Position numbers and translations under genes: made by a program. This document shows positions 5,484-23,423 of a stretch of DNA of 27,239 nucleotides, piece after piece (position 1 is the stretch's first letter; every line of letters starts with the position of its first letter). The notes below the pieces were generated by a model, which saw only the letters and a list, made by a program, of their open reading frames with translations, did not search any database and had not been told where the DNA came from. Source of the stretch: a virus. Location of the stretch: positions 1 to 27,239 of the IMG/VR virus record IMGVR_UViG_3300025436_000108; one strand, 5' to 3'.

Positions 5484-8149
5484 CGAATGATCCAGATCAT
5501 CTGATTGCCGACTTTGCGGACCTCGTGCGGAACCGCACGGACCAAGAATTGCTGGACATCTGTTATGCTTCCCCGGCGGCCCACTTTGCGTGTTTTTGCA
5601 AGATTCGGGACAAAAACAACGTCATTATTTCACCTACGCCCAACATCCTGCAGCTTCGCATGTCTGAAGCCTACGAGACGATGCGCCGGATGGAAGTGAA
5701 GGTGAGGATCATCGTGACCAAGCCCAGGCGGGCCGGGTGCTCGACCTTCGCGGCACACATCCTCTACCACCATGGGATGAAGGTGCCATGCGAGGGCATT
5801 GCCATCGCGGACAAGAAAGAGCACTCGGAAGCCCTGCTGAAAAAGCTCAAGAGCTACCAAGGTGCGGATTCCTACCCGTGGGAAGTGCAGATGATCGCCG
5901 ACCCGCTGCACAGCATCGAGTGGAGCAACGGCACCAAGTGGAATGTGGACACTGCACAAAATCCAAACGCCAGCGTAGGCGACACCAACCAGCTTGGATT
6001 GTTCTCGGAAACCTCGAAGTGGCCTCAAACCACCCAGCGCAACGATAAGGTGGTCATGGCCGCGGTTCTGCCCACCTTGAGCGGGTCGGACTCGGTAGCG
6101 TTCTCAGAATCCACTCCGGAAGGTGCCGTGGGTTGGCAATACTCCACATGGCAAGTGGCGGTCACGCTGGAGGAATTCATACGGATGTTTGAGGCTGGCA
6201 TCCGCCCGGAAGAGCAATGGGTGAAGATATTCGCGGGGTGGTGGGAATTCGGCGACAACCGCCGCAAGCAACCGGTATCGGCCCAGGAAATTGCCCACAT
6301 TCAGGCCACGCTTGACGACACCGAGCGGGACGAAATTGTTAAGTATGGATTGGATTGGGAGCAGGTGGCCTGGCGCCGGGACACGATCAAGAGCGTTTGT
6401 AACGGCGATCCCAAGGTGTTCAGCTACTATTACCCGAGCGACGATGTGTCGTGCTGGTTGGCCAGTGGCTCCCCGCGGTTCGACATGGGAATCCTCGTGG
6501 AGATGGAGAACAGAGCGCGACTTATCACGCCCGACACTGGCTACCTGCTCACCCAAGACAGCGGGCAGGTAACATGGCAGAATACCCGCGACGGCACCGG
6601 GGACATCCTGGTGTGGGAGCACCCCATCGAGCACTGCCGCTACCTGGTGACCATCGACCCGGCGACCGACGCCAGCCAGACGATAGGAGCGGATCCAGAC
6701 AGGCACTCGGTGAGCGTGTGGCGGGACGGCTACCACGATGCGGATTTCGATAGGTGGCGGCCGGCTATGAAGGTGGCGAGGCTGCGCCCGCCATTCTATG
6801 GCGAGGGTGATGAGGTGGCCGGGCATGCGGCGCGGCTATCGCGCTTCTATGGCACCTGCATGACGGTAATCGAGATCAACTGCGGCCTCGACATCCTGCG
6901 GCTGCTCAAGGACAACGGAATACCCTGCCACAAGCGCCGACCAGATTCACACCGCACCGGCCAGATCGTCGAGCAATACGGATTCAAGATGACCGACAAG
7001 CAGGAGCGCAACGCGGTGATCGAGGGATTCGCCGCGGCGATCCGGGACCGCGCCATCGACGTGCTGTGCCTGCATTCGATTCAGGAGTACAAGACGTTCA
7101 TCGTCCGACCCAACGGACGCGCCGAGGCCGCCGGCGGTGCCCACGATGACGATTGTTTCATTCGAGGAACCATGATTTTGACGCCAAGCGGACAAGTTCC
7201 AATCGAAACACTCAAAGTGGGAAACATGGTAATCACCCGTGACGGACCAAAACCAATCGCCAGAACATTCGCTCGAATCAAACCCGTAATCTCGAACCTC
7301 GGACTAGTCGGAACAGCCACCCACCCAATCATCACCCCTGATGGAGAAAAACGCTTGTCAATGGTATCAGCAAGTAATACGCTATACATATGGAACACGA
7401 CAACCAACCGACCAGAGAAACTGTCATTTACGGAGGCAAAAAATACCATCGGCATCCACAGTCACAACGAAGACAATTCCGTGTTTATTTTTGGAGACAT
7501 GATAAATGGAAGGCACCACCTGTTGCACTTCATCGGCAAATCTGGATTGACCATCATGGGGAAATTCCAATCGGCCACTTCGTTCATCACAAGGATGGCA
7601 ACCCGCTCAATAATGACATTGGGAATCTGGAAACAATCGCTGCTGGCACCCACACCCGAATGCACATGCGGAATCCTGCACAAAAACGACTCATGCGTGA
7701 AGCCGGATACAGACAAACTGAACGCATCGTCGCAGCGCTCAAAAAATGGAGAAGCCTTCCAGAATCAAAAGCAGCCATGCGGGAAATCTCACGCAAATCC
7801 CTACTCGTTACAGAACGTCAACTGGCGTGCATTTGCTGTGGGACTCTTTTTCTATCCACCAATCGGTGTTCTAAGTTTTGTTCTAAAAGTTGTAGAACTT
7901 GGGTCACGAACCGCAAGGCTTTTGCAAAGAAGAAAGGTCTTCAACCTCCATGTGGAGGGTTCACACGAATACTTTGCCAACGGGATTCTGGTTCATAACT
8001 GTCTGGCCGACGCCATCGCCTGGCAAACGATGCCCAGCGCCACCGCCTACAAGCAGCACCGGGTGAAAAACATCGACCCGCCGGACATGGCCAAGCGCGG
8101 CAAATGCGGAGGCTGGCGCGAGGTCAACAATGTGCGGCGCGGGTGGTAA
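5480..8149 (+). CDS. terL: terminase large subunit interrupted by an intein
   Basis: The packaging motor ATPase and nuclease, 889 residues before splicing and about 607 after. The ATPase Walker A-like motif is KPRRAGCST (81-89). The probable Walker B/catalytic Glu is in LFSE (E177). The RNase H-like nuclease has its acidic residues in TIDPATD (D393), VIEIN (E465) and the HDDD..LADA motif (H555-D558 continuing at C841). A Hint-type intein (559-840) splits this last motif, so the precursor should be nuclease-dead until splicing. Start: ATG 5480 overlaps the terS stop as ATGA, a spacing repeated at 3797, 4147, 4563 and 23420. A GTG at 5465 with AAGGGA eight bases upstream is a serious alternative, adding five residues. 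Confidence 0.93.
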   Translation: MTNDPDHLIADFADLVRNRTDQELLDICYASPAAHFACFCKIRDKNNVIISPTPNILQLRMSEAYETMRRMEVKVRIIVTKPRRAGCSTFAAHILYHHGMKVPCEGIAIADKKEHSEALLKKLKSYQGADSYPWEVQMIADPLHSIEWSNGTKWNVDTAQNPNASVGDTNQLGLFSETSKWPQTTQRNDKVVMAAVLPTLSGSDSVAFSESTPEGAVGWQYSTWQVAVTLEEFIRMFEAGIRPEEQWVKIFAGWWEFGDNRRKQPVSAQEIAHIQATLDDTERDEIVKYGLDWEQVAWRRDTIKSVCNGDPKVFSYYYPSDDVSCWLASGSPRFDMGILVEMENRARLITPDTGYLLTQDSGQVTWQNTRDGTGDILVWEHPIEHCRYLVTIDPATDASQTIGADPDRHSVSVWRDGYHDADFDRWRPAMKVARLRPPFYGEGDEVAGHAARLSRFYGTCMTVIEINCGLDILRLLKDNGIPCHKRRPDSHRTGQIVEQYGFKMTDKQERNAVIEGFAAAIRDRAIDVLCLHSIQEYKTFIVRPNGRAEAAGGAHDDDCFIRGTMILTPSGQVPIETLKVGNMVITRDGPKPIARTFARIKPVISNLGLVGTATHPIITPDGEKRLSMVSASNTLYIWNTTTNRPEKLSFTEAKNTIGIHSHNEDNSVFIFGDMINGRHHLLHFIGKSGLTIMGKFQSATSFITRMATRSIMTLGIWKQSLLAPTPECTCGILHKNDSCVKPDTDKLNASSQRSKNGEAFQNQKQPCGKSHANPYSLQNVNWRAFAVGLFFYPPIGVLSFVLKVVELGSRTARLLQRRKVFNLHVEGSHEYFANGILVHNCLADAIAWQTMPSATAYKQHRVKNIDPPDMAKRGKCGGWREVNNVRRGW
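7154..7999 (+). other. intein (Hint protein-splicing element) in TerL
   Basis: A 282-residue protein-splicing element. Block A begins with the nucleophile Cys (CFIRGTMIL.P.G) and runs through ETLKVGNMVITRDG. Block B has the TxxH signature in GTATHP. Block F is VFNLHVEGSHEYFANG and block G ends ILVHN, followed by Cys +1. The joined extein reads HDDD-CLADA, restoring the terminase nuclease motif III. Base composition is visibly more AT-rich than the flanking terminase sequence, as expected for a mobile insertion. Between blocks B and F the intein frame shows no endonuclease. Instead that stretch encodes an HNH nuclease in another frame (7390-7998). Confidence 0.92.
7390..7998 (+). CDS. HNH homing endonuclease encoded in an alternate frame inside the intein
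   Basis: A 202-residue ORF in a different frame from the intein and completely inside it. Residues 28-90 have the phage HNH homing-nuclease pattern: FRVYFWRH, a VALHRQIWIDHHG.IP lead-in, then the catalytic FVHHKDGNPLNND.GNLE (H66, H67, D69, N71, N75, N79), with later His in THTRMH. Residues 147-168 form a C-x2-C ... C-x3-C zinc ribbon (C147/C150, C164/C168) typical of such nucleases. The last 20 residues are probably just the other-frame reading of intein blocks F and G. TAA at 7375-7377 closes the frame upstream, so ATG 7390 is the first possible start; no clear ribosome binding site is seen. The TAA stop at 7996-7998 falls within the codons of the intein's final His-Asn. It presumably cuts intein-free terL alleles to drive homing (inference). 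Confidence 0.88.
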   Translation: MEHDNQPTRETVIYGGKKYHRHPQSQRRQFRVYFWRHDKWKAPPVALHRQIWIDHHGEIPIGHFVHHKDGNPLNNDIGNLETIAAGTHTRMHMRNPAQKRLMREAGYRQTERIVAALKKWRSLPESKAAMREISRKSLLVTERQLACICCGTLFLSTNRCSKFCSKSCRTWVTNRKAFAKKKGLQPPCGGFTRILCQRDSGS

Positions 8150-9275: not shown

Positions 9276-12200
9276 ATGGGATCACGATTCAGGAGCTTGG
9301 CAGAAGATGAAGTGCAGGATTATCTGGGCGAAGTGGCAGCAGGACGGGCGGGAATAGACCCGAATGCGGTGCGGATGAGTCAATCGAAAATCCCGAGCGA
9401 GGCGAACACGGGAGCCCGCATGCTCGACCAGCAGCAACGCGACCAGCGGCGACAGGCAGCCATGGACGCAACGGAAGCCAACCGGCAGGCCAAGGAGGCC
9501 GAAAGGCTGGCCGAAGAGGAGCGCAAGCGGCAGGTGCGCATCGGCGTGAGCGAGGGACGGGCAAAGACGACCGACGTTCAAACCGGCAAGACCACGCTGG
9601 ACACGCTGCCCACAGGTGCCCCCGCATTCCAGACGGGCGAGGTAGGCAAGCCGCGAGTGCTGCCGGCGGTGCAACAGGACAAGGCCAAGGTCATTGCAGG
9701 AGTTCCGGGATTCGGCGAACTGATGGTGAACGACCAGATCGTGCAGAAGACACCTTACGAACCCTCCCAAGGCAAAGCGCTCGTGCAGGACTACCGCAAC
9801 CCGGAAGGACAAACCAAGTCCCAGGCACTGCCAACCCACACGGATCCAAAGACGGGACAGGTGACGGTCTCGACCAAGGACGCGTGGGGCGCACCGCAGA
9901 AAGTGGATGCGGGTGTTGACGAAGCACTGGCTGCCAAGGTTGCCAAGGATGCCGAGTTGGAACAGCGCAAGGCGGCCCTCGACCTGCGCTTGAACAACAT
10001 CAACCAGACGCGGATGCAGTTTAATCCACGATGGAAAGGACCGGATGGAGCAAAGACCACCTTCGACAAAGCGGCCGAGGCTCTGAATAACTTCGAGGAA
10101 AAGCCCATTTTCGCGCGGGCACAGGATCGGGAGGATACTCCCGGCGCGATCATGAAATGGGCAAAGGTGAACCCGAAGACGGGTCAGGCGGAGAGATACC
10201 AGAAAGATGTGATCGCCCGTGTGGACCCACTTAGCGGAGAGTCCAATATCACCCAGGACGAAGACGGCAATTTGGTCCGGGTGACATCGCACAAAGCTGG
10301 AGACCTCGTGGAATACGATCCTCTGGAACTGGTCAAGTGGCGGAAGGACAGGGCACAACTTCAAGCGGCTCACGACCGCGCCAAAGCCGAACACGACCGG
10401 CTGTTGCCGCAGGCCGAGCGCCTGAACGCGGCAAAATTCGAGGTGAAGGACCAGCATTTGAAGCTGGCGGCAGAAAAGATTCAGCACGAGCACGGGATGC
10501 CCCCGGAAGCCGCTGGTGCGGCTGAGACGCTGGCGGCGGCAGAGACCGGCGTCCAATCGCCATGGATGCGGGCGTGGAACGAGGCCACCGCGCCGGTGCC
10601 TGGTGTGATCGCCGCTGATTCCACAAAACCAGCACAAAACACCCCTGAAATTGCAAAAAACCAGCCGGAAATTGCACAAAACGGCCAAAAATTGCAACAA
10701 CCACCTTCCGCGGGCGGCGCAGGCAGCGCAGCACCACCATCAGTTCAACCATCGGCGGCGACTACACCCGCCCCGCCCGCGGCCAAGGTATTTCCGACCA
10801 ACCATCCCAACGTAAAGAACGACGATGGATCCACAAGCAACGTGATTCTGGCGGGTGTCAACATCAATGGCAAGGAGCGGGTGATTCCAACGATGGTTGA
10901 CGGCAAAAAGCTGTCTGTGAAGGAAGCAACCACTATCGCCATCAAGAACGGCATCGACAAATACCCGACGTTCAATACCCCGGAGGAAGGTGACGCATGG
11001 GCCAAAGCCAACCATGGCAACATCGACGAACAGGGAAACCTGAAGACCGCTGCAGCCCCGGCAACGGCCAAGAAGCCTTTGATTCCCCTCGACGACCCGG
11101 GCAAGATCGCGATGTTCTCCAAGGCGGCCGGCGGTCTCGACAAACCGGAGGAAATCAGCGTGGAGACGAGCCCCCAGGGCATCACCTGGCTAACACGCAA
11201 GACCAAGAACGGCGCGACGGACAACATCGGCAGCGTGGCCAAGGACGCGCGGGGCAACCCCTATGTAATGCTCAGCAGTTCGCTCGAAGGCAGGGGTTTG
11301 CAAAAGCACGTGGACTACAGTGCCACGGATGGCATGCCGATCTATCTGAGAGAACCGGATGGATCTCAACCTATTGACCCGGTCAAAGGGGCGCAATATG
11401 TGGCCGACGTGTTCAAGGCAGTGCAAGACACCATTCCTGCGGGTCAGGATGCGGTGTGGGCGAAGTTGCAAGAGATGAAGGCCACTCCCGACCAGATCGC
11501 CATGCAGGTTTACCACGGGAAACTCTCGGTGCAGGACGGACAATCCCTCATCAAGGGCGTCTATCCGGATCTCACATTAAAGGCGGATGATCCATTGGCT
11601 CCGGCAACTTTCGGCAAGTGGCTGTCCAAGCAGGATGCGGAAACCAAGGACGCATGGAACAAAGCCAAGGAGCCGGAAGAAAAGGATGCGGTAAAAAGCA
11701 AGTTCCTCGAAGATTGGTGGAGCAACAATGGATGGAAACCGGGCGTGGATGTAGGCACTCTCGAGGAAGCAATCAAGGTCGTTACCCCTGGCCGGCAGGC
11801 TGAAGGAACCATACGCACGATCGCGCGCAAGTTTGACATGGAGATCGCGCCGGCCATTGGCACGCTGGTAGGCGGATTCATCGGCGCTCTGGTAGGAGCG
11901 GCGGCGGGCATCGAGACTGGCCCAGGTGCCGTGGTGACATCAGTAGGGGGAGCCATTGCCGGTGGCACGGCAACAGGAGTGGTTGTCGCAGAGATGCAGA
12001 AACGGATACTAACAGCCATCATGGGAGAGAAGTGGGTGAAGACGAATGAACTCCAGATGGCGGCCAATGCCAGAAAACACGGAGAGGCCGACATGGTGGC
12101 AACGATGGCTCCATTGTTTATTTCCTGCATGGGAGGAAACGTGGGCGTACCGGTACGCAATGTTGGAGGGGGATTCATCAGCAAGGCAATTACCGGAGCA

Positions 12201-15200
12201 GGCAAAGCGGCAACGGAAGAGGCTGCATTCTACAATATGGGTGCCGTGGCACGCGGACTACCGCAGCAGGCGATGAAGATCCCGATGGTTGAACGCATCG
12301 CACAGAACGCGGCCATCGGCATGCGGGTGGATGCCAGCCGGGCGGCGCAAGAGAAGTATGTTGGAGGCAAGACCAATGAAGACGGATCGGAGATTTCTGT
12401 CATCAACAGCGCACTGCGGGGAGGCGTCTCGTTCGCGGCACTGGGATTCATGCCCGAATCCATCGTTATGGTCCCAACCGCCAAGCAGGTTTTGGAACGG
12501 GCAGTCGTGCATGGCGTGTCAAATGCCGCAGTCATGACGATGGCCGGCACCATGTATGACTCGCTGACAACCGGAAAACTTCCAGACTGGAACAAAGTGG
12601 CGAAGGAAACGGGAGGGACCATCCCGCCATTCGTTGTTCAAAGTCTGGTCATGGGTGTCCTGCACCGTTCGTGGAGCGGACGCAGTGACAAAACTGGCAC
12701 CGTGGATCCGAACTCCCCCGCGCCAACAGGCACCGGAACCACGACGCCTCCGACCAAAGGACCGCAATCCGGTTTCAGAAACGTCACTCCAAAAGCGCCA
12801 AAACCAACCGTTCCTCAAGAACCTCTCACCGCCGAGCAAGCGGTCATCATTGAAACAAACCCGGCCAAGGTGGCGGAAATGCACCCCAACGATTACGCCA
12901 AGTGGCTGTCCCACAATGTGACGTTGGAGCCGGGCGATCAAGTTGCATCCACCGAAGCGCTCGCCAACGTGCAGACCGCCATCACCGCGGCCCGCACACG
13001 GGGCGACACCGCCACCGAGCAGGTTCTTACGGCTCAAATCCACGCATCCACCCAGCGCACCGACTGGACCGCTGAAGAGTTAGGCAGCGACGATCCTGAA
13101 TTTATCGAGCGGATCAACAACGATGCGCGGGATTTCAACCAATCCCTCGCCGACACCCGCACGCGCCTTGGAATACCTGAAGCGCCACAGGTTCAAGCGC
13201 CAACCCCCAACCAACCCGCATCCGCGCCACCAACGGTTGGAACGATGGTGGAATATAGCCGATCCGACGGGCGAGTAGAACAGGGGAAACTCGTCAAGCT
13301 GGCAGACGAACAGTCTGGTTACATGATCGAACGCGCCGATGGTTCGACGGTTGAAATCCCCGCTAACAGAGAAATCAGAACCCCACAAAGCAATGGGCAA
13401 AACATACAAGGACCGGCCGGAGCGCAAACCCCTGCGCAAGCTGCACAAAACCCGCCAGCAGCCCCGACAACGGGTGAGCTTGGAGGACCTTCCGGAGAAG
13501 GATCAGGAACGAAACCAGCGCCGCCAGGGGAACCACCGGTAACCGCAGGGAAGCACGATGATTTGCCAGCGGGAACCATCGTTCGTTCCGACGTTTACCA
13601 TGGCGAAGGCGACATCACCTTGACGGGACCGGCCCAACAGGGGCCGAACGGGCCGGAATATCCGGCATACTTCTCAGGCACGCAGCGCTACGGGATGGTT
13701 CAAGCCCGTCACATCACGAACATTGCAACCACGCCGGCCAAGTCAACCGGAACCACGCCGGATGCAGTGCAATCCCCGAAGAATGGGGAAGCGCAGCCGT
13801 CAACCGCGTCAACCGAAACGTCAACCACAAACCCGGAAGCAAAGCCCACCGAACCCGCGCAACCACCGCGCCGGGTGGCATTCCACCATCCGGGCCTTGG
13901 CGGCCAGGCCACGGGCGAGGTCATCGAGACACGGCCCGATGGAAGGTTGAGAATCAAGGCCGACGATCACAAGAATGTCATCGTCACGCTGAAACCCAGC
14001 GATGTGATCGACATCGAGTCAACCCCTTCCGCTGCCATCAAGGCACCGCAAGAAACAACCCCAACCCCAACCGACAATGGCCCTACCGAAAGCAAAGCCA
14101 GCGCCGCCCAAAGCCCCGATCAAACAGGGCAACCCGTTCGCAAAACTGCCCCCGATGAAGGGCAAAATGCCAATGGGGAAAAAGGGCAAGTGCTGACCCC
14201 ATCCGAACCAGCCGCCGGGGAGACATCAACTTCGGCGGCTACCAAGGGCAGGACATCCCCCAGGCAGATCGAGGCGTTCGACCAAGGCAACGTGCCAGCC
14301 GATGGCCGCGAGCCGGTGAGAGTGAATGAAGTGGATGCCAATGGAGACCCGATGTTCAAGGTGGGCGAGAAGGTCATCGTGGACGGCGAGGAAATGACGG
14401 TATCGAAAGTCCAGATGTCCAAGGATTCGCTTGGCAACGAGGATGTGGACTACGTGGTGTTGAACGACGGCAGCAAGTTTGGCCGGCAAGTGCTCAAGAG
14501 CGGGGATACCGTGTGGACCGAGACCGATGATTCACCGACTCCCAAGGAGGAAACGAAAGCGCAAGCAGTGGAGCAGGCGGCCAGCGAAACGAACACCGAA
14601 CCCACCGAGGCGCAAAAGGAGGCGGGAAACTATGCCAAGGGCAAGGTGACACTCCATGGCATGACGGTTTCCATCGAGAATCCCAAAGGATCCACGCGTT
14701 CCGGCACCGACAAGAACGGCAAGCCGTGGAGTGTGGAGATGAAAAGTCACTATGGGTATTTCCTGGGTAGTGAAGGCCGCGATAAGCAACATGTGGACGT
14801 GTTTATCGGTCCCAACCCGGATGGGAAGAAAGCATTCGTGGTAAATCAGATTGACCCGGCCACCGGACGCTTCGACGAGCACAAGGTTATGCTGGCCTAT
14901 GATTCCAGACAGGAAGCCATCGCAGGCTATCAAGATAATTACAAACCCGGATGGAAAGGACTTGGCAGCATCGTGGAAACCGACGTGGACACGCTGCGCG
15001 AATGGCTGAAAACCGAAGACACCAAGAAGCCAGCCAAGAAGGAAGACTTCAAGCCAACCGTCAAGGAATCCTTAACAGTTCAACCGCCCACCCCCGGCAC
15101 GCCTGAGTTCAAGGCGCTGCCACAAGCGGAGAAACAGGCGGCGGTGAAGGCTTTCGCGGAAAGCAAGAAAGCGGAGCGGGAGAATGCCAGACCCGAGCGA

Positions 15201-18200
15201 TTGACTCCCGCCGACTTCCAGAAGACCGCCGAGTTCGTGCACGAGAAGGGCAAGAGAATGCTCATGGTCCGCATCGGAAACGCCATGCACACGATCAATG
15301 ACCAGAGAAACGGCCAACTCACCAAGCCCGCTGGAGAAGTCCTTGCCGATCTTCACAAGGCGCTGATCCAACAAAGCGTTGACCTGCTGAAAGCGGACCT
15401 GGCCGATGCAAGCCCGCAGAGCGTGGCTTCGACCAAGAACCTCGCCAAGACCCGCCTGAAAGATGGTGGCATGTATTCCGTTTCCGCCGATGCGGTGGAC
15501 GCCTATGACATCAAGTTGCCGGATGGATACGTTAGAAAGGGTGACTTGTATGTGAGGGAAGCGGCAAAGGAAAACCCACCCGCGCCCGCTCCCGCCACCA
15601 CACTGGAGGAAGTCACAGCGGCTTCGGCGCATCTTCCTGAAGGTGTATTTCAAGATGTGATCGATGGCATGGATCGGGAGATTGAACGTGCGCGAACCAA
15701 GGTGGAAAATCTCCAGAAGATCAACGAACGCCTCAATGAGCAATCGAGCAAAGTCCCCGGCTCATTTGTTACCGGACGTTCCAATCAGCACAAGGGTTTG
15801 ATGAAGCAACGCGGTGCCCTCAATGACCGCATGAGCAAAGCGTTCACTCTATGGCAAGACGCGGAAAAACATCTCCGCGAGCTTGAAGAAAAACGTGCGG
15901 GATACGTGTCTGGAGAACGGCATGAAAACGGCCAGCCGCGAGCCAACTCTCCATCACGGCAAGCGGCGACATCCGCTGTTGGTTCCTACGGCGATTACCT
16001 TCGCGCCACGGTCAAAAAGGGTGACAGGGTGACATTCGTTGCCAACCCGGATGCCGGTGGCAGCATCGTCAAGAGCGTGAACAAAAAAACGATCACGCTG
16101 GAAGGTGGATCATCGTGGAGTTTTGACTACTTCATGCCATGGAAGGACGGCAGGGAGATGACCAAGGCGGAATTGAAGGAAGACATTAAGGCGTGGAGAG
16201 ATAAGCAACCGCCATCAGATTCCACCGTGCAGGAGCCCGGCGCTCCGTTTGGCGACGCATTAGGGAAAGAAAAGGAACGTCTGTTTGCCACCGCACCTCG
16301 TGGCAATGACAGACACCCGCTGGCACCGAACGGACAGAGATCGAACCTGGCGGAAGATCAATGGTCAGCGGCGCGGACGGATGGGTTCAAGAAAGACTTC
16401 GGAGATTGGGAGACTCTGGATGTTCAAAGAAGATTGGATTTAATGTCACCCACGAAGATTACGGTTCCCGATTCGTGGAGAGGGAAATCAATCGAAGAAA
16501 TGCGCCAGTCAATGGCCGAAATCCTTGACGAGATGGTTAGAAATAAAGCCGTCATTGAACATCCCGAAATCGGCACGATCCACATTGGACGGCGAGGTGC
16601 TGGGAAAACGGAAAACACATCGGCAGACCCGGCCAAAATTCTGATAGCATCCGATTTGGAAAACACTATCCCGCGTTCGATTAAGTCAGGATTCTCGAAG
16701 AGCAAAGAACAAGGCGTGGAAGGGTACACAACACTTCTTCTTCCCGTCAATGTGGACGGACACGAACTGACTGCTATTTTCACCATCAGAAAACAGTCCG
16801 ATGGTCAATGGTATTACAACACCGTGGCTGTCGCTGACAAAGAAATGAGACCGGGTTCATATGAATCGCCTGGTGCGCTTGCGCGCCCTCTAGGGAAGAC
16901 TCCAATCACCGGCCTCGATGGATTCATACGCCGGGAATTGAAGCGCGTCAACCCGGAAAGTTTCCAGGGCAAGCTGGACTCAAACGGCGAGCCGCTGCCC
17001 GCCGAGGTGGACCGGTGGCTTGTGAAGCAGAAAGACGCCGCGCCCGACCGGGTCGAGGAAAGCCAGGTGCCGCTTGACGCATCGGAGGTTTCCACCTACC
17101 TTGCAGCCAATGGCACTCCAGCAAGCGTCATCAAAGCCGAAAGTGAGCGAGTATCCCAAGCCTTGGAACAACATCGATCCGGCGGATTGGCCGAGGATGG
17201 AAAGCCGTATTCGCAAGGTGATTTCTTCGCACAGCCAGAATCCGCGCCATCGCCGAAGGGTGGGGCAACTCAGGTTCCTGCTGCCAGCCCCGGAACAAAG
17301 CCCAAGACTGGAACCAAACTTCCATCCGTTTCAGAAGACCTCTACGCCGGCCTGACCGGCGATTGGCAGGCGCTCGCCCGCGAGGTGAATGACAAGGGGC
17401 GGGCGGTGCAGATTTTGCCCCAGCTCATCAAACATGAGATTCCCTATTGGAACCCGGTGGGCACGCGCATCGAGTCCCCGGCGGATGTTCATGCGCTCAT
17501 GATCCCCATCCGCTCGCCTTTCTTCGAGTCGGTCAAGGTCATGATCCTGGACGGACAGAACAATATCGTTGCAGCACGCATTATTACCATTGGAAGCGTG
17601 AATGAATCCGTGGCTTCAACAGGGGAAATTATGGGCGAGTTGGCGAGGCTGCGCGAGGAAACCGGGAAGAAATACCAGAGCATCATCCTCAGTCACAACC
17701 ATCCATCCGGTGACCCGTCGCCCTCATCCCATGATGATATTATCACCCGTCGCTTGAGAGAGGCTGCCGATATGACGGGATGGGAGGTGCTCGATCACAT
17801 CATCACCAACGGCGAGACCTACCACAGTTACCGCGAGTCCGGAATGATGTACTCCTCGACGGTCAACGAGGAAAAGCCATTCACGCCACGACGCATGGGG
17901 CCTCTGCCAGACAAGAACTTTCCAATGAAAGCGGATTGGGAAGTGGCGTTGCCATCGAAACTCCAGTCGATGGATCAACCGGAGAAGATCGCCGAGTTGG
18001 CGAAGTTCCTGAGAAACGGGAACCCGGACGCGGCCCATTTGCTCATGATGAACACGCGGATGAATCTGCTGGGCATCGAGCGCATGACATCCGAACAGGC
18101 CATGGATAGCCAATACCTGGCGCAACGCATCGCCAACGCCAGGGGATCGTTTGGAGCGTATGCCGTGGCCATCGATCTCCCGGCGGGAATCACTGGCGAC

Positions 18201-21200
18201 AACTCAAAAATGCACCTGTTGGCAATGCGGGTGCAGGCAATCAAGGACAGCATGGGAGTTCGAGTGGTTGACATTTCATCCGTGGATCCTGAAGGGCCGG
18301 GGTATTACAGCGCGATGGAGGAAGGTGTGTTGAGAGAACCCGCCCGTGACTTCGGGAAGGATGAGAACCAGCCCGACCTATTCGCCGCCACACGCGCGCC
18401 AGACGCCACGCAGAGGCTGGGCAGCGTGAAGGTGGGCACCATGTCAGCCCTCGGCGCTTACCGCACGCTCACGGCCAAACGGGACGCGGGCAAGGCACTC
18501 ACGGCGGATGAGCATCAGAAGTTGCTGGATGCCGAACAGGCGCTTGGTCAGAAGCTGGCGTTCGACATGGATGCGGTGAAAGGGCAAGAACAACCCGCCG
18601 CGCTTCCAGGCGGCGAGCAATCGGCCCGCCCGGCACCCGTCAAATCCCCGCGCGAGGTGCAGCAGGGCATGGGCTTCGGCAACGAGGTGGCCAAGAGCGG
18701 ACAGATGAGCCTGTTTGAAGGGGAGAAACCTTTCGGGAAACATCCCGCCGACGTGTGGAAGGATTTCCCGCATGTGCAATGGATGGTGCGCTTCAACCAT
18801 GTCAGCAACATCGGCGGCCCGCGCATCACGGTGCCGGATGCCAAATATGGAACACGCAGCTTCAATGCGGACTGGTATTTTGCCAAGGGTCGAGGGGAAG
18901 CCAGACCTGAAGAGCGGGAAAAATCAGCCCGCCAACTCATCAACCGCATTGTCAATGCCACGCCGAGGGGAAACCTCGACTCCATGCGCGATTTCATCAA
19001 GGCCAATCCCGATGCCATTCTGGTTCCAGTGCGCGGATTGGAAGAACCCAACACGGCATCCAACATCATTCCTGAGAGATTCGCTAGATTCCTATCAATC
19101 TTTGGCGGAAATCCAGTCAATGAAACCGTCCACAAGACCAACACCAGCCACAACACCGGCAAGGACGCCAAGAGCCGTTTGTTCACCGTGCATGAATTCG
19201 ATGGCGCGATAGAACCCGGAAAGGATTACATCATCGTTGACGATGTTTCCACCACCGGGGCGACCGCCTACTATCTGGCCCGCCACATCGCCAGCCAAGG
19301 TGGGCGTGTTGTCGGCGACATCCAAATGGGACTGACACCGCGCGGCGAAATGGATGCAAGGAAGCAGCGGGCGTTTGTCGGCGACGAACACATCATGGCG
19401 ATGAGCGATGCCACAAAAAAATCCTTGCAAGCCAAAGGCGATGATGCCACTTTGAACGCCGTTGTTCAACAACACGGAATCGCTTATGACTGGCACACCC
19501 TTACCGACGCCCTTGGCCGAGCCCTCAACGCCAACTGGAGCACAGCATCCCGTGCTGCGGGAATGCCTGGAGTCGGGACGCAGGTTCGAGGCGGAACACA
19601 AAGCGGGCGACCCGTTGATTATGGACGCGCTGGCGAAGTTCCGAGGCGACTCCCCGCCTTCCCCGGAGAGCGCGAAGCAGCAGGACTAGACCGGCCCGCA
19701 CCGGGCGAGACACGCATCACGCCACCCGCCGAAGGCGATGGACAGATGCGCTTGCTGGAGCCTGAGACTCCCTTCGGTGCCAACAGAAAAGGAATTACCG
19801 AACATCTAGTCCTGCCGATACCTGAAAACAAGGAACGCCCAGCGTCTTTGTCCGAGGATAGAAACCCGCATTCCTTGGCGGATCTCCAGGAATTTGTACA
19901 CGAGCCCGCGGTTCCGTTCGGTGCCAGCAAAGACGCCATCAAGCAGGCCCTCGCCAAACTGCCGCCGGTCTATCGCGGGGTGTTCGAGGCGGTGCAATCC
20001 GGCCTATCTACGCCCGAGGTGATGGAACGCTTCAAGGTGAACGAAAAGGCGGTGGGCAACATCGTGTCCCAGGTGCATGCGCGAATCGCGGCCGCCACCG
20101 GTGAACCCGCGCCGGCAGAGAGTCAGGCGCCGCCGGCCTCGACACCGCCGCCGACCACCACGCCAAAGGCGCAACCCGTGGAAACCCCCAAGACCGCCAC
20201 CGTTGAAGCACCGCCCAAACAGACGGACAAGGAGATGGTGGACCGAGCCTACTCAGGTCTCCCGGCGCTCATGCGCTCCAAGATCCCCGGCCTAGACATC
20301 GTTGGCGACATCACCCACGGCATCAAATCGTTGTTGCTGCCCACATCCAACGGCCCGGGCGAACTTCACGCGGCGGAACTGCTTGGCAGACGCATCGGCG
20401 AGATGCACCGCCGCCAGGAATCCGTGAATGGACAGTTTGAAAAATCGTGGAAGACGTTTGAAAAACTCGGTGTCCACCGCGAGGGATTGCCCATCGACGA
20501 AAACCAAGGCATCAAGTTCATGTCCGACCGCTCGTCGGGCCGCCCGATGAGTCCCGAGATGCAGGCGATCAACGACATGGCGGACAAGCAGGACGCCATG
20601 CGCGTGAAACTCTTGGAAGAAGCTGGCGTGCCACTGCAAACCGTGCGGCAGGATTACTTCCCCGGAATCTGGACCAAGGAAAGCCGCCGGGCTTTCAACA
20701 TGGCCATGGATGAAGCGAACGAAGCGGGCATCATTCCCGCGGGCACCGGCGTCAACGAAGCCACGCCAGAACAGAAAGCATGGGTGAAGGCACGGGTAGA
20801 TGAACTGCTCGACCTGCGCCAGGGATCGGACGCCACGCCCGGTAACGATTGGCTGGCCATGATCGCCAAGCGGCCATTCCCCGGCGGCGAGTCATTCAAG
20901 AAAAGCAAGGTGTTCGACCAGGACATCAAGACCGCCTTTGAATTCGGATTGCGCCCGACGAGTTACAACCCGGTGGATCAGATGAAACTCAAGTGGGCGG
21001 AAATGGATCGTTCCATCATGGCCCATCAATACCTGCGTGATTTGTCGCGGGAAGGATTGGTCAAAGTGCTGGATCCATTCGCCGCAATCCCCGAGGGATG
21101 GCAGGAAATCCAAGACAACAAGGTGGGCAAGATCTACGGATCACCCACGATCACCGTTCCGGAATACGTCAACAAGGCGGTCTATGACGGGTTGATGAAG

Positions 21201-23423
21201 GTCGCGGAAAACATCGGCATCACCCCGCAACGCGTGTTCAATGCGGGCCGGGGCAAGTTGGGATACGCGTCACGGTCCGGCGAGACCGTCACGCAATTTG
21301 CCACCGACCTTGGCGTGCTGGCGCATGAGATCGGACACCAACTGGATTTCAAATACGACCTGTGGGACAGGATCGTCACCCAGGCCGAGGCTGTTGGAAA
21401 ACGCGGCGAAGTCACCAAGACCGCCAGCGATGCCCGCCGGGCACAGATCAACCGCGAACTGCGGGCACTGGCGGATTTGAAACTGGAGAGCGAAACTCCC
21501 ACCGATTACCGCCAACGCTACGTGCGCAAGAAGGTTGAGAAAATGGCGCACATGCTGGAAGCCTATATCAAATCGCGTGAACTCTTCCGCGCCGTGGCCC
21601 CGGACGTGTTCTCACAGTTTGAATCGTTCATCCGTTCCACCCCGGAAATCGCGGAATTGGAAAACGTGAAGCCACGCATGACCTACGAGGAACTGACCAG
21701 CGATAAATACCTTGGACTCGTGCAGACCGGCAAGCGGATCGTGCCCAACGCGGTTGGCGACATCCTCAACAACTACCTGTCAGAAAGCCTCTACAACAAC
21801 CGCTATTTCGGCAAACTCTACACCGGCTGGATGGCGCTCGCCAACAAGCTGAACCAGGCGCAATTAGGTGTTGGATCCGCATTCCATGCGGGATTCACCA
21901 CGCTGGAAGCACAAATCAGCGCCAATGCCACGGTGATGAAAGACATGTTCGGCATCCTGCGCGGCAACCGCGGTTTCACCGACCTCGGCAAGAGCATCGG
22001 CAAAGCCGCCATTGCCACGGGAGAAACCTATTACACGGGCAACAAGGTGCTCAACGCATGGCGCGACCCGGACGGCGTGATTGATCCTAAGATCGCCCAG
22101 GTGGTGCGTGCCATCGAACTGGCCGGCGGCGGATTCACCATGGAACGCGGACTCAAGAGCGATGACATGGCGGCAGTTTACAGCGATTGGAACAACGGCC
22201 ACAAGGTCATGGCGATGGTCAAGAGCCCGCTGGCGGCCGTGGAAGCCATGGCCTACCCGATCATGACCGGACTCGTGCCACGGCAGAAAGCCGGGGTGTT
22301 CGCGCACATGGCAAACCGCATCATCGAACAGAACCCAGGAAAGGCATTGGAAGACCTCGCGCCGGAATTCCGCCAGGCATGGAACCGGGTCGATGCCCGC
22401 TTGGGTCAGGTCCGCTATGACCGGCTTTTCATCCGCAACACCGCTAAAAACTTCATTCAAATGCTGGTCCGCGCACCCGGGTGGACGGGCGGAACCATCG
22501 CGGAAATCGGCGGCGCGTTCAAGGACACTTACAAGTTCTTCGAAGAGTGGACCAAGACCGGCAAACTCCCGCAGGACATACCCGACCGCGTGGCCTACAC
22601 CACGTCACTCGTGCTGACCACCGCTTTGATCAATGCATTGCTCACCTACCTGTTCACCGGTGACAAACCCAAGGACATGGACCCATCCAACTTGGATTAC
22701 TGGGCATTCCGGACCGGCGGCACTGACGAGCACGGCAACCCGGAACGCTTCGTTCTGCCGACCTACATGAAGGACATGCTGGCGTGGAGCAAGGAACCGG
22801 GCACCACCGCACTCAACAAGACCCACCCGCTGATTTCCCTGGCAGCGGACATGGTGCGCAACAAGGATTATTACGGCATAGAGGTGAGCAATAAAGATGA
22901 CGAACTCGCCAAACGCATCATGGACGACGGGAAGTACATAGCCAAGGCGTTCGTGCCATTCTGGATGCGCGGGGCACAGCGCGAACGTGAACGTGAAGCG
23001 CCGCCATACCGTCAAGCGTTGCCGATGATCGGCGTGATGCCCGCCCCGGCCAAGATGACCGAAACCGATGCTGAAAGAGCCGCGGCAGAATATTCCAAGG
23101 ACACAATCCCGGTTGGTGCACGCACCCAGGCACAAGCAGATGCGTCCAAGGCCAAGTATGAGATCGTGAAAAAACTCAAAGCCAAAGAGCCGGTTGACTG
23201 GAACGCGGAATTGAAAGCCGGCCATATCAAACCCAAGGATTTCACGGGTCTCCTGCGCCGCTCCCAGATGAATCACCTGCAATACGTGGTGAAGAAACTC
23301 TCCATCGACAAAGCGGAAGCCGTGTTCAAGAAAGCCAACCCGGATGAGAAGAAACAGCTTGAACAGATCATGCTGGTAAAACGCTTCCATGCGCACACCC
23401 AAACGCCGGAACCCGAAGAATGA
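9276..23423 (+). CDS. giant phage polyvalent protein, 4,715 residues
   Basis: One uninterrupted frame joining many domains by Pro/Thr/Gln-rich linkers. Order: coiled, charged N-terminus (1-90); a short phage domain with NHPNVK..DG and GK.RVIPTMVDG (509-595); Gly/Ala-rich hydrophobic hairpin (855-908); KOW/SH3-like beta segments (about 1320-1590); pyrophosphatase-like domain with IENPKGSTRSGTD and HYGYFLG...DKQHVDVFIGP (1785-1912); helical DUF3560-like segment (2111-2209, tentative); LPD3/PBECR-like segment with ARTDGFKKDFGDWE (2355-2569); JAB/RadC domain with H2807-x-H2809-x10-D2820; phosphoribosyltransferase with VDDVSTTGAT (3152-3419, motif 3321-3330); helix-turn-helix (3562-3605); zincin HEIGH (4017-4021); hydrophobic segment (4441-4462). 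These match the 'polyvalent proteins' described by Iyer and colleagues, thought to be packaged and injected to protect incoming DNA. Ejection-protein roles are also possible. It is bounded by element copy 3 and an ATGA overlap with the next gene. Confidence 0.9.
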   Translation: MGSRFRSLAEDEVQDYLGEVAAGRAGIDPNAVRMSQSKIPSEANTGARMLDQQQRDQRRQAAMDATEANRQAKEAERLAEEERKRQVRIGVSEGRAKTTDVQTGKTTLDTLPTGAPAFQTGEVGKPRVLPAVQQDKAKVIAGVPGFGELMVNDQIVQKTPYEPSQGKALVQDYRNPEGQTKSQALPTHTDPKTGQVTVSTKDAWGAPQKVDAGVDEALAAKVAKDAELEQRKAALDLRLNNINQTRMQFNPRWKGPDGAKTTFDKAAEALNNFEEKPIFARAQDREDTPGAIMKWAKVNPKTGQAERYQKDVIARVDPLSGESNITQDEDGNLVRVTSHKAGDLVEYDPLELVKWRKDRAQLQAAHDRAKAEHDRLLPQAERLNAAKFEVKDQHLKLAAEKIQHEHGMPPEAAGAAETLAAAETGVQSPWMRAWNEATAPVPGVIAADSTKPAQNTPEIAKNQPEIAQNGQKLQQPPSAGGAGSAAPPSVQPSAATTPAPPAAKVFPTNHPNVKNDDGSTSNVILAGVNINGKERVIPTMVDGKKLSVKEATTIAIKNGIDKYPTFNTPEEGDAWAKANHGNIDEQGNLKTAAAPATAKKPLIPLDDPGKIAMFSKAAGGLDKPEEISVETSPQGITWLTRKTKNGATDNIGSVAKDARGNPYVMLSSSLEGRGLQKHVDYSATDGMPIYLREPDGSQPIDPVKGAQYVADVFKAVQDTIPAGQDAVWAKLQEMKATPDQIAMQVYHGKLSVQDGQSLIKGVYPDLTLKADDPLAPATFGKWLSKQDAETKDAWNKAKEPEEKDAVKSKFLEDWWSNNGWKPGVDVGTLEEAIKVVTPGRQAEGTIRTIARKFDMEIAPAIGTLVGGFIGALVGAAAGIETGPGAVVTSVGGAIAGGTATGVVVAEMQKRILTAIMGEKWVKTNELQMAANARKHGEADMVATMAPLFISCMGGNVGVPVRNVGGGFISKAITGAGKAATEEAAFYNMGAVARGLPQQAMKIPMVERIAQNAAIGMRVDASRAAQEKYVGGKTNEDGSEISVINSALRGGVSFAALGFMPESIVMVPTAKQVLERAVVHGVSNAAVMTMAGTMYDSLTTGKLPDWNKVAKETGGTIPPFVVQSLVMGVLHRSWSGRSDKTGTVDPNSPAPTGTGTTTPPTKGPQSGFRNVTPKAPKPTVPQEPLTAEQAVIIETNPAKVAEMHPNDYAKWLSHNVTLEPGDQVASTEALANVQTAITAARTRGDTATEQVLTAQIHASTQRTDWTAEELGSDDPEFIERINNDARDFNQSLADTRTRLGIPEAPQVQAPTPNQPASAPPTVGTMVEYSRSDGRVEQGKLVKLADEQSGYMIERADGSTVEIPANREIRTPQSNGQNIQGPAGAQTPAQAAQNPPAAPTTGELGGPSGEGSGTKPAPPGEPPVTAGKHDDLPAGTIVRSDVYHGEGDITLTGPAQQGPNGPEYPAYFSGTQRYGMVQARHITNIATTPAKSTGTTPDAVQSPKNGEAQPSTASTETSTTNPEAKPTEPAQPPRRVAFHHPGLGGQATGEVIETRPDGRLRIKADDHKNVIVTLKPSDVIDIESTPSAAIKAPQETTPTPTDNGPTESKASAAQSPDQTGQPVRKTAPDEGQNANGEKGQVLTPSEPAAGETSTSAATKGRTSPRQIEAFDQGNVPADGREPVRVNEVDANGDPMFKVGEKVIVDGEEMTVSKVQMSKDSLGNEDVDYVVLNDGSKFGRQVLKSGDTVWTETDDSPTPKEETKAQAVEQAASETNTEPTEAQKEAGNYAKGKVTLHGMTVSIENPKGSTRSGTDKNGKPWSVEMKSHYGYFLGSEGRDKQHVDVFIGPNPDGKKAFVVNQIDPATGRFDEHKVMLAYDSRQEAIAGYQDNYKPGWKGLGSIVETDVDTLREWLKTEDTKKPAKKEDFKPTVKESLTVQPPTPGTPEFKALPQAEKQAAVKAFAESKKAERENARPERLTPADFQKTAEFVHEKGKRMLMVRIGNAMHTINDQRNGQLTKPAGEVLADLHKALIQQSVDLLKADLADASPQSVASTKNLAKTRLKDGGMYSVSADAVDAYDIKLPDGYVRKGDLYVREAAKENPPAPAPATTLEEVTAASAHLPEGVFQDVIDGMDREIERARTKVENLQKINERLNEQSSKVPGSFVTGRSNQHKGLMKQRGALNDRMSKAFTLWQDAEKHLRELEEKRAGYVSGERHENGQPRANSPSRQAATSAVGSYGDYLRATVKKGDRVTFVANPDAGGSIVKSVNKKTITLEGGSSWSFDYFMPWKDGREMTKAELKEDIKAWRDKQPPSDSTVQEPGAPFGDALGKEKERLFATAPRGNDRHPLAPNGQRSNLAEDQWSAARTDGFKKDFGDWETLDVQRRLDLMSPTKITVPDSWRGKSIEEMRQSMAEILDEMVRNKAVIEHPEIGTIHIGRRGAGKTENTSADPAKILIASDLENTIPRSIKSGFSKSKEQGVEGYTTLLLPVNVDGHELTAIFTIRKQSDGQWYYNTVAVADKEMRPGSYESPGALARPLGKTPITGLDGFIRRELKRVNPESFQGKLDSNGEPLPAEVDRWLVKQKDAAPDRVEESQVPLDASEVSTYLAANGTPASVIKAESERVSQALEQHRSGGLAEDGKPYSQGDFFAQPESAPSPKGGATQVPAASPGTKPKTGTKLPSVSEDLYAGLTGDWQALAREVNDKGRAVQILPQLIKHEIPYWNPVGTRIESPADVHALMIPIRSPFFESVKVMILDGQNNIVAARIITIGSVNESVASTGEIMGELARLREETGKKYQSIILSHNHPSGDPSPSSHDDIITRRLREAADMTGWEVLDHIITNGETYHSYRESGMMYSSTVNEEKPFTPRRMGPLPDKNFPMKADWEVALPSKLQSMDQPEKIAELAKFLRNGNPDAAHLLMMNTRMNLLGIERMTSEQAMDSQYLAQRIANARGSFGAYAVAIDLPAGITGDNSKMHLLAMRVQAIKDSMGVRVVDISSVDPEGPGYYSAMEEGVLREPARDFGKDENQPDLFAATRAPDATQRLGSVKVGTMSALGAYRTLTAKRDAGKALTADEHQKLLDAEQALGQKLAFDMDAVKGQEQPAALPGGEQSARPAPVKSPREVQQGMGFGNEVAKSGQMSLFEGEKPFGKHPADVWKDFPHVQWMVRFNHVSNIGGPRITVPDAKYGTRSFNADWYFAKGRGEARPEEREKSARQLINRIVNATPRGNLDSMRDFIKANPDAILVPVRGLEEPNTASNIIPERFARFLSIFGGNPVNETVHKTNTSHNTGKDAKSRLFTVHEFDGAIEPGKDYIIVDDVSTTGATAYYLARHIASQGGRVVGDIQMGLTPRGEMDARKQRAFVGDEHIMAMSDATKKSLQAKGDDATLNAVVQQHGIAYDWHTLTDALGRALNANWSTASRAAGMPGVGTQVRGGTQSGRPVDYGRAGEVPRRLPAFPGEREAAGLDRPAPGETRITPPAEGDGQMRLLEPETPFGANRKGITEHLVLPIPENKERPASLSEDRNPHSLADLQEFVHEPAVPFGASKDAIKQALAKLPPVYRGVFEAVQSGLSTPEVMERFKVNEKAVGNIVSQVHARIAAATGEPAPAESQAPPASTPPPTTTPKAQPVETPKTATVEAPPKQTDKEMVDRAYSGLPALMRSKIPGLDIVGDITHGIKSLLLPTSNGPGELHAAELLGRRIGEMHRRQESVNGQFEKSWKTFEKLGVHREGLPIDENQGIKFMSDRSSGRPMSPEMQAINDMADKQDAMRVKLLEEAGVPLQTVRQDYFPGIWTKESRRAFNMAMDEANEAGIIPAGTGVNEATPEQKAWVKARVDELLDLRQGSDATPGNDWLAMIAKRPFPGGESFKKSKVFDQDIKTAFEFGLRPTSYNPVDQMKLKWAEMDRSIMAHQYLRDLSREGLVKVLDPFAAIPEGWQEIQDNKVGKIYGSPTITVPEYVNKAVYDGLMKVAENIGITPQRVFNAGRGKLGYASRSGETVTQFATDLGVLAHEIGHQLDFKYDLWDRIVTQAEAVGKRGEVTKTASDARRAQINRELRALADLKLESETPTDYRQRYVRKKVEKMAHMLEAYIKSRELFRAVAPDVFSQFESFIRSTPEIAELENVKPRMTYEELTSDKYLGLVQTGKRIVPNAVGDILNNYLSESLYNNRYFGKLYTGWMALANKLNQAQLGVGSAFHAGFTTLEAQISANATVMKDMFGILRGNRGFTDLGKSIGKAAIATGETYYTGNKVLNAWRDPDGVIDPKIAQVVRAIELAGGGFTMERGLKSDDMAAVYSDWNNGHKVMAMVKSPLAAVEAMAYPIMTGLVPRQKAGVFAHMANRIIEQNPGKALEDLAPEFRQAWNRVDARLGQVRYDRLFIRNTAKNFIQMLVRAPGWTGGTIAEIGGAFKDTYKFFEEWTKTGKLPQDIPDRVAYTTSLVLTTALINALLTYLFTGDKPKDMDPSNLDYWAFRTGGTDEHGNPERFVLPTYMKDMLAWSKEPGTTALNKTHPLISLAADMVRNKDYYGIEVSNKDDELAKRIMDDGKYIAKAFVPFWMRGAQREREREAPPYRQALPMIGVMPAPAKMTETDAERAAAEYSKDTIPVGARTQAQADASKAKYEIVKKLKAKEPVDWNAELKAGHIKPKDFTGLLRRSQMNHLQYVVKKLSIDKAEAVFKKANPDEKKQLEQIMLVKRFHAHTQTPEPEE

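Follow-up and report, generated by a model that had tools for sequence, protein, structure and literature searches.

An HNH gene nested in a terminase intein

The window analysed here, a stretch of viral DNA of 27,239 nucleotides (IMG/VR record IMGVR_UViG_3300025436_000108), carries a large-terminase gene, terL, directly downstream of terS (phrog_51, terminase small subunit). An intein frame is inserted at the nuclease motif of TerL, ...HDDD/C (the slash marks the insertion point), and 72% of the intein is covered by a second ORF, which encodes an HNH protein in the +2 frame relative to the intein (236 mod 3) (Table 1). The intein runs from C1 (TGT at 7154) to N282 (AAC, 7997-7999) and is followed by the +1 Cys codon at 8000-8002; the stop codon of the HNH ORF is made from the last two intein codons, CAT AAC. 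Among all 846-nt stretches of the window the intein is the GC minimum (46.9% against a mean of 58.1%, sd 2.8%), as expected for an acquired element.

Table 1. Positions of the features at the terL locus.
Feature	Position	Strand	Remarks
terL ORF (large terminase) with intein	5465..8149	+	One continuous ORF; N-extein matches phrog_2 (terminase large subunit), E 5e-9
terL N-extein	5465-7153		
terL C-extein	8000-8146		
Intein, 282 aa, class 1 type	7154..7999	+	C1, TATH block B, HEYFANGILVHN, +1 Cys
Intein N-terminal Hint part (blocks A and B)	7154..7444	+	pLDDT >90 at residues 1-90; PDB fold matches
HNH homing-type endonuclease ORF, 202 aa	7390..7998	+	ATG 7390 to TAA 7996-7998; HNH_3 match
Intein-frame linker over the HNH gene	7445..7925	+	Mostly predicted disorder; amino acid sequence unconserved; stop-free
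Intein C-terminal splicing part (blocks F and G)	7938..7999	+	FNLHVEGSHEYFANGILVHN
Putative initiation region of the nested ORF	7359..7389	+	TTGTCA-17-TACGCT, then ATACAT-ATG; weak, unproven

The intein starts with CFIRGTMILTPSG, contains CFIRGTMILT as block A and TATHP as block B, and ends in HEYFANGILVHN/C. It matches Pfam Hint_2 (E 4e-9) and, at its C-terminus, TIGR01443 (E 4e-7, above its cut-off). In 45 intein members C1 and H57 are invariant and T54 is nearly so. The features that define class 1 inteins, namely Cys1 in block A, TxxH in block B, blocks F and G with a terminal Asn, and a +1 Cys, are all present. In the AlphaFold2 model the Hint domain has pLDDT >90 at residues 1-90 and about 241-283, and the middle, exactly where the HNH gene lies, is mostly of low confidence (pLDDT <50 at residues 98-130 and 175-225). 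A Foldseek search with this model matched gp41-1 (E 1.9e-5), which satisfies the requirement of a Hint fold; matches in the structure library were the gp41-1, DnaB and RecA inteins, gp41-1 being the nearest. The initial annotation had described a complete intein frame with blocks A, B, F and G, and this description is borne out by the Hint_2 and TIGR01443 matches, the Hint fold, the terminal Asn and the +1 Cys. The terL intein is apparently complete and of class 1, its splicing activity being inferred from the motifs of the family.

The product of the nested ORF matches HNH_3 (E 1e-13). Its HNH core occupies residues 46-81 and the zinc-ribbon cysteines residues 147-169; the position proposed for this alternate frame, 7390-7998, is exact. 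H66, H67, N75, N79 and H88 are invariant in 43 HNH members, as required of the catalytic residues, and the AlphaFold2 model has a pLDDT of 90. Among solved structures its best sequence match is the homing enzyme I-HmuI (PDB 1u3e, E 1.5e-4), over the HNH core.

A start codon could be assigned to the HNH ORF in 129 of 130 members (ATG in 120); the ATG or GTG start is conserved, and an in-frame stop lies upstream of it, at a median distance of 12 nt in the 130 members. Shine-Dalgarno matches of at least 6 nt precede 11 of 130 HNH starts against a background of 0.45%, an approximately 19-fold enrichment. Such matches are rare in the window's own clade, and no clear Shine-Dalgarno sequence was found before ATG 7390. 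The same clade has a sigma-70-like element whose end lies some 6 nt upstream of the HNH ATG and whose score is modestly higher than that of synonymous shuffles (mean z 0.9, sem 0.27, for related sequences). The internal promoter of the window's HNH ORF reached a promoter score of p 0.04 in one permutation test, and a plain consensus promoter scan of the window found none upstream of the HNH ATG. A leaderless transcript for the HNH gene remains only a hypothesis.

Distribution of the layout

Relatives were sought in viral contigs, prokaryotic genomes and named phages. The search with the HNH protein alone, which is blind to the intein frame, yielded 112 distinct HNH loci, of which 81 are nested in the +2 frame of a terminase intein, three are nested in the +1 frame and 28 are free-standing or otherwise arranged; none of the 112 is in frame with an intein. 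Together with searches for the intein frame, this gave, after de-duplication, 130 inteins in which the splicing frame is closed and the HNH lies at +2, and about 140 distinct inteins of the same layout when C-blocks missed by the profile and members found later were added. These members are related to one another, mostly metagenomic and partly retrieved with an intein-frame profile. The layout is present in Tetrasphaera phage TJE1, Acinetobacter phage Highwayman and Rhodobacteraceae phage MD07, whose annotations give nothing but terminase at these loci. The exteins of nearly all members are terminases by Pfam (several families) and PHROGs, and the frame relation is the same across very divergent TerLs in the roughly 140 relatives. 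Homologues carrying the HNH in frame with the intein would have refuted the initial annotation; none was found in the clade, and about 140 members share the out-of-frame layout. Out-of-frame nesting is the usual layout of this HNH clade and not a peculiarity of the phage in the window. The only in-frame HNH intein that we met is the distant one in the dCTP deaminase of CL131 (L019).

In three terminase inteins (L068, L085 and L095) the HNH ORF lies in the other shifted register, +1, which suggests an independent origin or a switch of frame. A search of plasmids returned only partial Hint-domain matches. Three loci (L105, L178 and L055) have two inteins close together, each with a nested HNH, and in L105 and L178 both inteins are apparently within one ORF. 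The terminase ORF of L004 (1089-4763) has, upstream of its nested-HNH intein, an apparent second, longer intein-like insert in frame.

Stop codons and selection in the overlap

To assess the chance of an open intein frame, the synonymous codons of each HNH gene were shuffled among themselves, with the protein left unchanged. The initial annotation had used random codons and arrived at about 1 in 10,000. That was the wrong test and was replaced by the synonymous-codon permutation, in which about 1% of shuffles of the window's HNH gene leave the intein frame open. For the window alone this is suggestive only, and the relatives decide. The synonymous shuffles predict 371 stops in the intein frame under the HNH genes of 129 members, and there are 0; for the third frame they predict 2622, and 2582 are present, a near agreement which indicates that the null is calibrated. 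In the reverse test, in which the intein protein was kept and stops in the HNH frame were counted, 0 were found against 976 expected. The same frame in 19 free-standing HNH relatives contains 148 stops against 142 expected. These counts are effect sizes and not p-values, because the members are related and were classified by their open intein frame; of some 135 loci that have both an intein N-block and an HNH, only about 5 were rejected by the open-frame filter, mostly because their C-blocks were missed by the profile. About 3 stops per gene have to be removed in the favoured frame and about 20 in the other shifted frame, so the bias toward the +2 register follows from codon structure.

Selection was mapped in 25 disjoint pairs of 62-97% identity. 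In the flanks outside the overlap, differences are most frequent at the third position of intein codons (0.475 vs 0.247 and 0.200 in the N flank; 0.467 vs 0.199 and 0.110 in the C flank). In the middle of the overlap they are most frequent at the third position of HNH codons (0.449 vs 0.215 and 0.251). Omega, taken as the ratio of non-synonymous to synonymous rates within the non-synonymous class of the other frame, is there 0.50 for the HNH frame, being below 1 in 24 of 24 pairs, and 1.22 for the intein frame, below 1 in only 4 of 24. Constraint is intermediate in the outer 60 nt at each end, which indicates that true dual constraint is confined to the edges of the overlap. The HNH frame is under purifying selection and is maintained as a protein. 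The intein frame beneath it is kept merely open, and the conserved splicing blocks lie outside the overlap or at its edges. The earlier proposal that both frames are maintained thus stands for the HNH, as a protein (omega about 0.5), and for the intein frame only in the sense that it is free of stops (about 1.2). A function of the linker at the level of its amino acids is unsupported (omega about 1.2, low pLDDT).

Movement and decay of the element

In one terminase clade, occupied terL alleles (L280, L281 and L283) and empty ones (L285, L287 and L288) share 98.9-99.3% identity upstream of an exact 987-nt insertion and 97.5-100% downstream of it. The +1 codon is GTG (Val) in the empty alleles and TGT (Cys) in the occupied ones, and Cys is the residue needed for splicing. 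Elsewhere the intein N-block is 92% identical in TerLs that are only 36% identical (L167 and L177), and inteins of about 54-60% identity occupy TerLs of 93% identity (L151 and L187); close elements were found in TerLs of about 27-36% identity. From these comparisons we infer that the element is mobile, moving between terL alleles and between divergent TerLs. Entry of the element into empty alleles, the mark of mobility, is evident in relatives and is not shown for the window's own terL. A search for a close intein-less allele of the window's TerL found none, and for this particular locus homing is an inference from the relatives. Acinetobacter phage BP10 was considered as an empty allele of Highwayman and rejected, since the two TerLs are only 27% identical over the aligned part. 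By distances, the Mantel r between intein and HNH is 0.38, below the 0.49 between HNH and TerL, which points to no more than moderate co-inheritance of intein and HNH.

Deletions took most of the HNH in L145 and L192 and left the intein frame intact, and L183 has the intein without the HNH. Loss of the HNH frame in relatives had been named as an outcome that would refute the initial annotation; it does occur (L145 and L192), and because the intein frame is kept, the reading is not refuted. Such loss fits a homing cycle. A different fate is seen in Vibrio phage 1.238.A (L016, NC_055735; 2124-3374), where the N-terminal half of terL and a C-terminal Hint half (gp12) are separate ORFs of one frame. 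The +2 HNH lies between the halves, with 14 stops in the intein frame under it. As far as the ORFs indicate, the layout has here become a split intein.

Discussion

Our results make it very probable that the terL locus holds a mobile intein with its homing endonuclease encoded separately, by a gene overprinted on it in another frame. The two ORFs, the avoidance of stops, the frame selected in each part, the spread of the layout and its presence or absence in near-identical terL genes of relatives were observed directly; splicing, expression and cleavage are inferred. The initial annotation had placed a homing-type HNH in an alternate frame of the terL intein, and the family, the substitution pattern and the natural empty and occupied alleles support it. 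TerL would be translated through the intein frame, and the Hint domain (intein residues 1 to about 97 and about 256-282) would, judging from the family motifs, excise itself together with the unconserved linker to yield intact TerL. The same mRNA, or an internal transcript, may be translated from ATG 7390 into a free 202-aa HNH/zinc-ribbon nuclease, which would cut an intein-less terL near the HDD/x site. Repair of the break from an occupied copy would then copy the whole intein with its HNH by recombination, that is, homing. A stop in the intein frame would inactivate TerL unless the gene became a split intein, and so this frame has to remain open; for the HNH the only requirement would be to preserve the sequence of its own protein.

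HNH_3 inteins of the conventional, in-frame kind are known (CL131 dCTP deaminase, PMC6293099; L019), and in one of them two frameshifts that compensate each other, or errors of sequencing, might have moved the nuclease into another frame, leaving the HNH as a relic or a misassembly. This is hardly conceivable: the same offset recurs in about 140 contigs that were assembled independently and in several genomes of named phages, virtually every member has an HNH ORF with a start and a stop of its own, this ORF is under purifying selection, and no in-frame member of the clade was found. As a general account, in-frame ancestry with a frameshift artefact is refuted by the roughly 140 relatives with their own start and stop. 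Programmed ribosomal frameshifting out of the intein would give a fusion of the intein N-part with the HNH and not a free nuclease. The frame relation, fixed in most members, would fit it, but the bias of register is explained by codon structure (about 20 vs about 3 stops per gene), and the in-frame stop a median of 12 nt upstream of a conserved ATG or GTG start, with Shine-Dalgarno matches of at least 6 nt at about 19 times background, makes frameshifting very unlikely.

The HNH might also serve packaging instead of homing, like the HNH proteins described beside terminases, and overlap terL by chance. The host gene is a terminase in nearly all members, and in Acinetobacter phage BP10 terS has a free-standing relative as its neighbour. 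Nevertheless, exact-site presence and absence in near-identical terL genes, transfer between divergent TerLs and loss of the HNH while the intein stays form a selfish pattern, and the best solved sequence relative is the homing enzyme I-HmuI; we regard a packaging role as quite improbable. An intron, or a retained insert of the ShiLan type without protein-level splicing, is scarcely tenable. The ShiLan insert, too, ends in TAAC and hides an HNH out of frame (PMC11855218), but it lacks the intein splicing motifs that the terL element has together with a high-confidence Hint fold. Moreover, the splicing blocks of the terL intein are under purifying selection, and its frame is open throughout, which an intron would not need.

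Several parts of the overprinted terL intein have known counterparts: hidden out-of-frame HNHs in methylases, in-frame HNH inteins, and the split inteins of fractured genes. The ShiLan domain and Pacc40 are hidden HNH insertions (Arsenault, Gosselin, Gogarten 2025; PMC11855218), and ShiLan-type insertions sit in phage DNA methylases without intein splicing motifs or fold (PMC11855218). Like them, the terL element is a mobile insertion in a phage gene with a zinc-finger HNH in an alternate frame; the HNH has its own start and stop, the host frame is open, the TAA lies within a terminal TAAC, and free-standing HNH relatives adjoin the same genes. It differs in that it is a Hint intein carrying the HNH, lies in terminases and occurs in a far wider set of phages. 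With its splicing blocks present, it is not of the ShiLan type, which is defined by the lack of an intein splicing domain. The intein of the cyanophage CL131 dCTP deaminase, whose splicing was shown experimentally, has an in-frame HNH (PMC6293099). It resembles the terL intein in having an HNH_3 nuclease between the N- and C-terminal splicing blocks; its nuclease is translated in frame within the intein, whereas that of terL is a separate protein in another frame. With an offset of +2, the terL intein is not a conventional endonuclease intein, in which the nuclease is in frame. The initial annotation was right to contrast it with that usual arrangement, the offset being +2 and none of the HNH clade being in frame.

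In the fractured genes that Dassa et al. reportedly described in 2009, split inteins have a free-standing endonuclease between their halves. The terL intein shares with these a separately encoded endonuclease between the splicing halves and is structurally nearest to gp41-1, and L016 may be regarded as a split version of its layout. The terL intein of the window differs in being continuous, its nuclease overprinting the frame rather than interrupting it; with one continuous ORF at 5465-8149 it is neither a split intein nor a fractured gene. I-HmuI is a group I intron enzyme. The terL HNH matches it over the HNH core (1u3e, E 1.5e-4) and differs in that its carrier is an intein and the reading frames overlap.

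The literature search turned up nothing but the ShiLan papers and the announcement of a cluster A1 genome in which an out-of-frame HNH is mentioned. No description of a continuous intein with a separate overprinted endonuclease gene was found in the literature searched; the preprint 'Actinobacteriophage Inteins: ... Non-Canonical Architecture' (10.1101/2025.01.02.630785) may cover related cases.

Intein endonucleases are normally seen as domains that are spliced out with the intein, and overprinting is another solution to the same problem: the intein keeps an essential host gene alive while the other frame of the same DNA makes the spreading enzyme. The members provide a large natural test set for overlapping genes in which one protein is constrained and the other only stop-free. 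Annotation pipelines miss such nucleases, as the labelling of TJE1, MD07 and Highwayman as terminase only illustrates. The layout also suggests how contiguous inteins turn into split inteins. It is possible, although we put it at somewhat below an even chance, that overprinted inteins are a large and old class, in which an independent nuclease gene with its own expression, possibly leaderless in this clade, lies out of frame in the linker, the nuclease is made apart from the terminase, and a route to split inteins is open. If this is true, one stop in the linker frame would produce a fractured gene, as in Vibrio phage 1.238.A.

Other ORFs of the window

The window has a second same-strand overlap. 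A C5 DNA methylase ORF (28-957, +; PF00145) contains, nested in another frame, an ORF of 200 aa (272-874, +), whose product matches phrog_1008 (DNA methyltransferase, E 1.7e-21) and stand-alone actinobacteriophage genes. A giant ORF of 4715 aa (9276-23423, +) lies between the terminase and tail-like genes and the portal gene.
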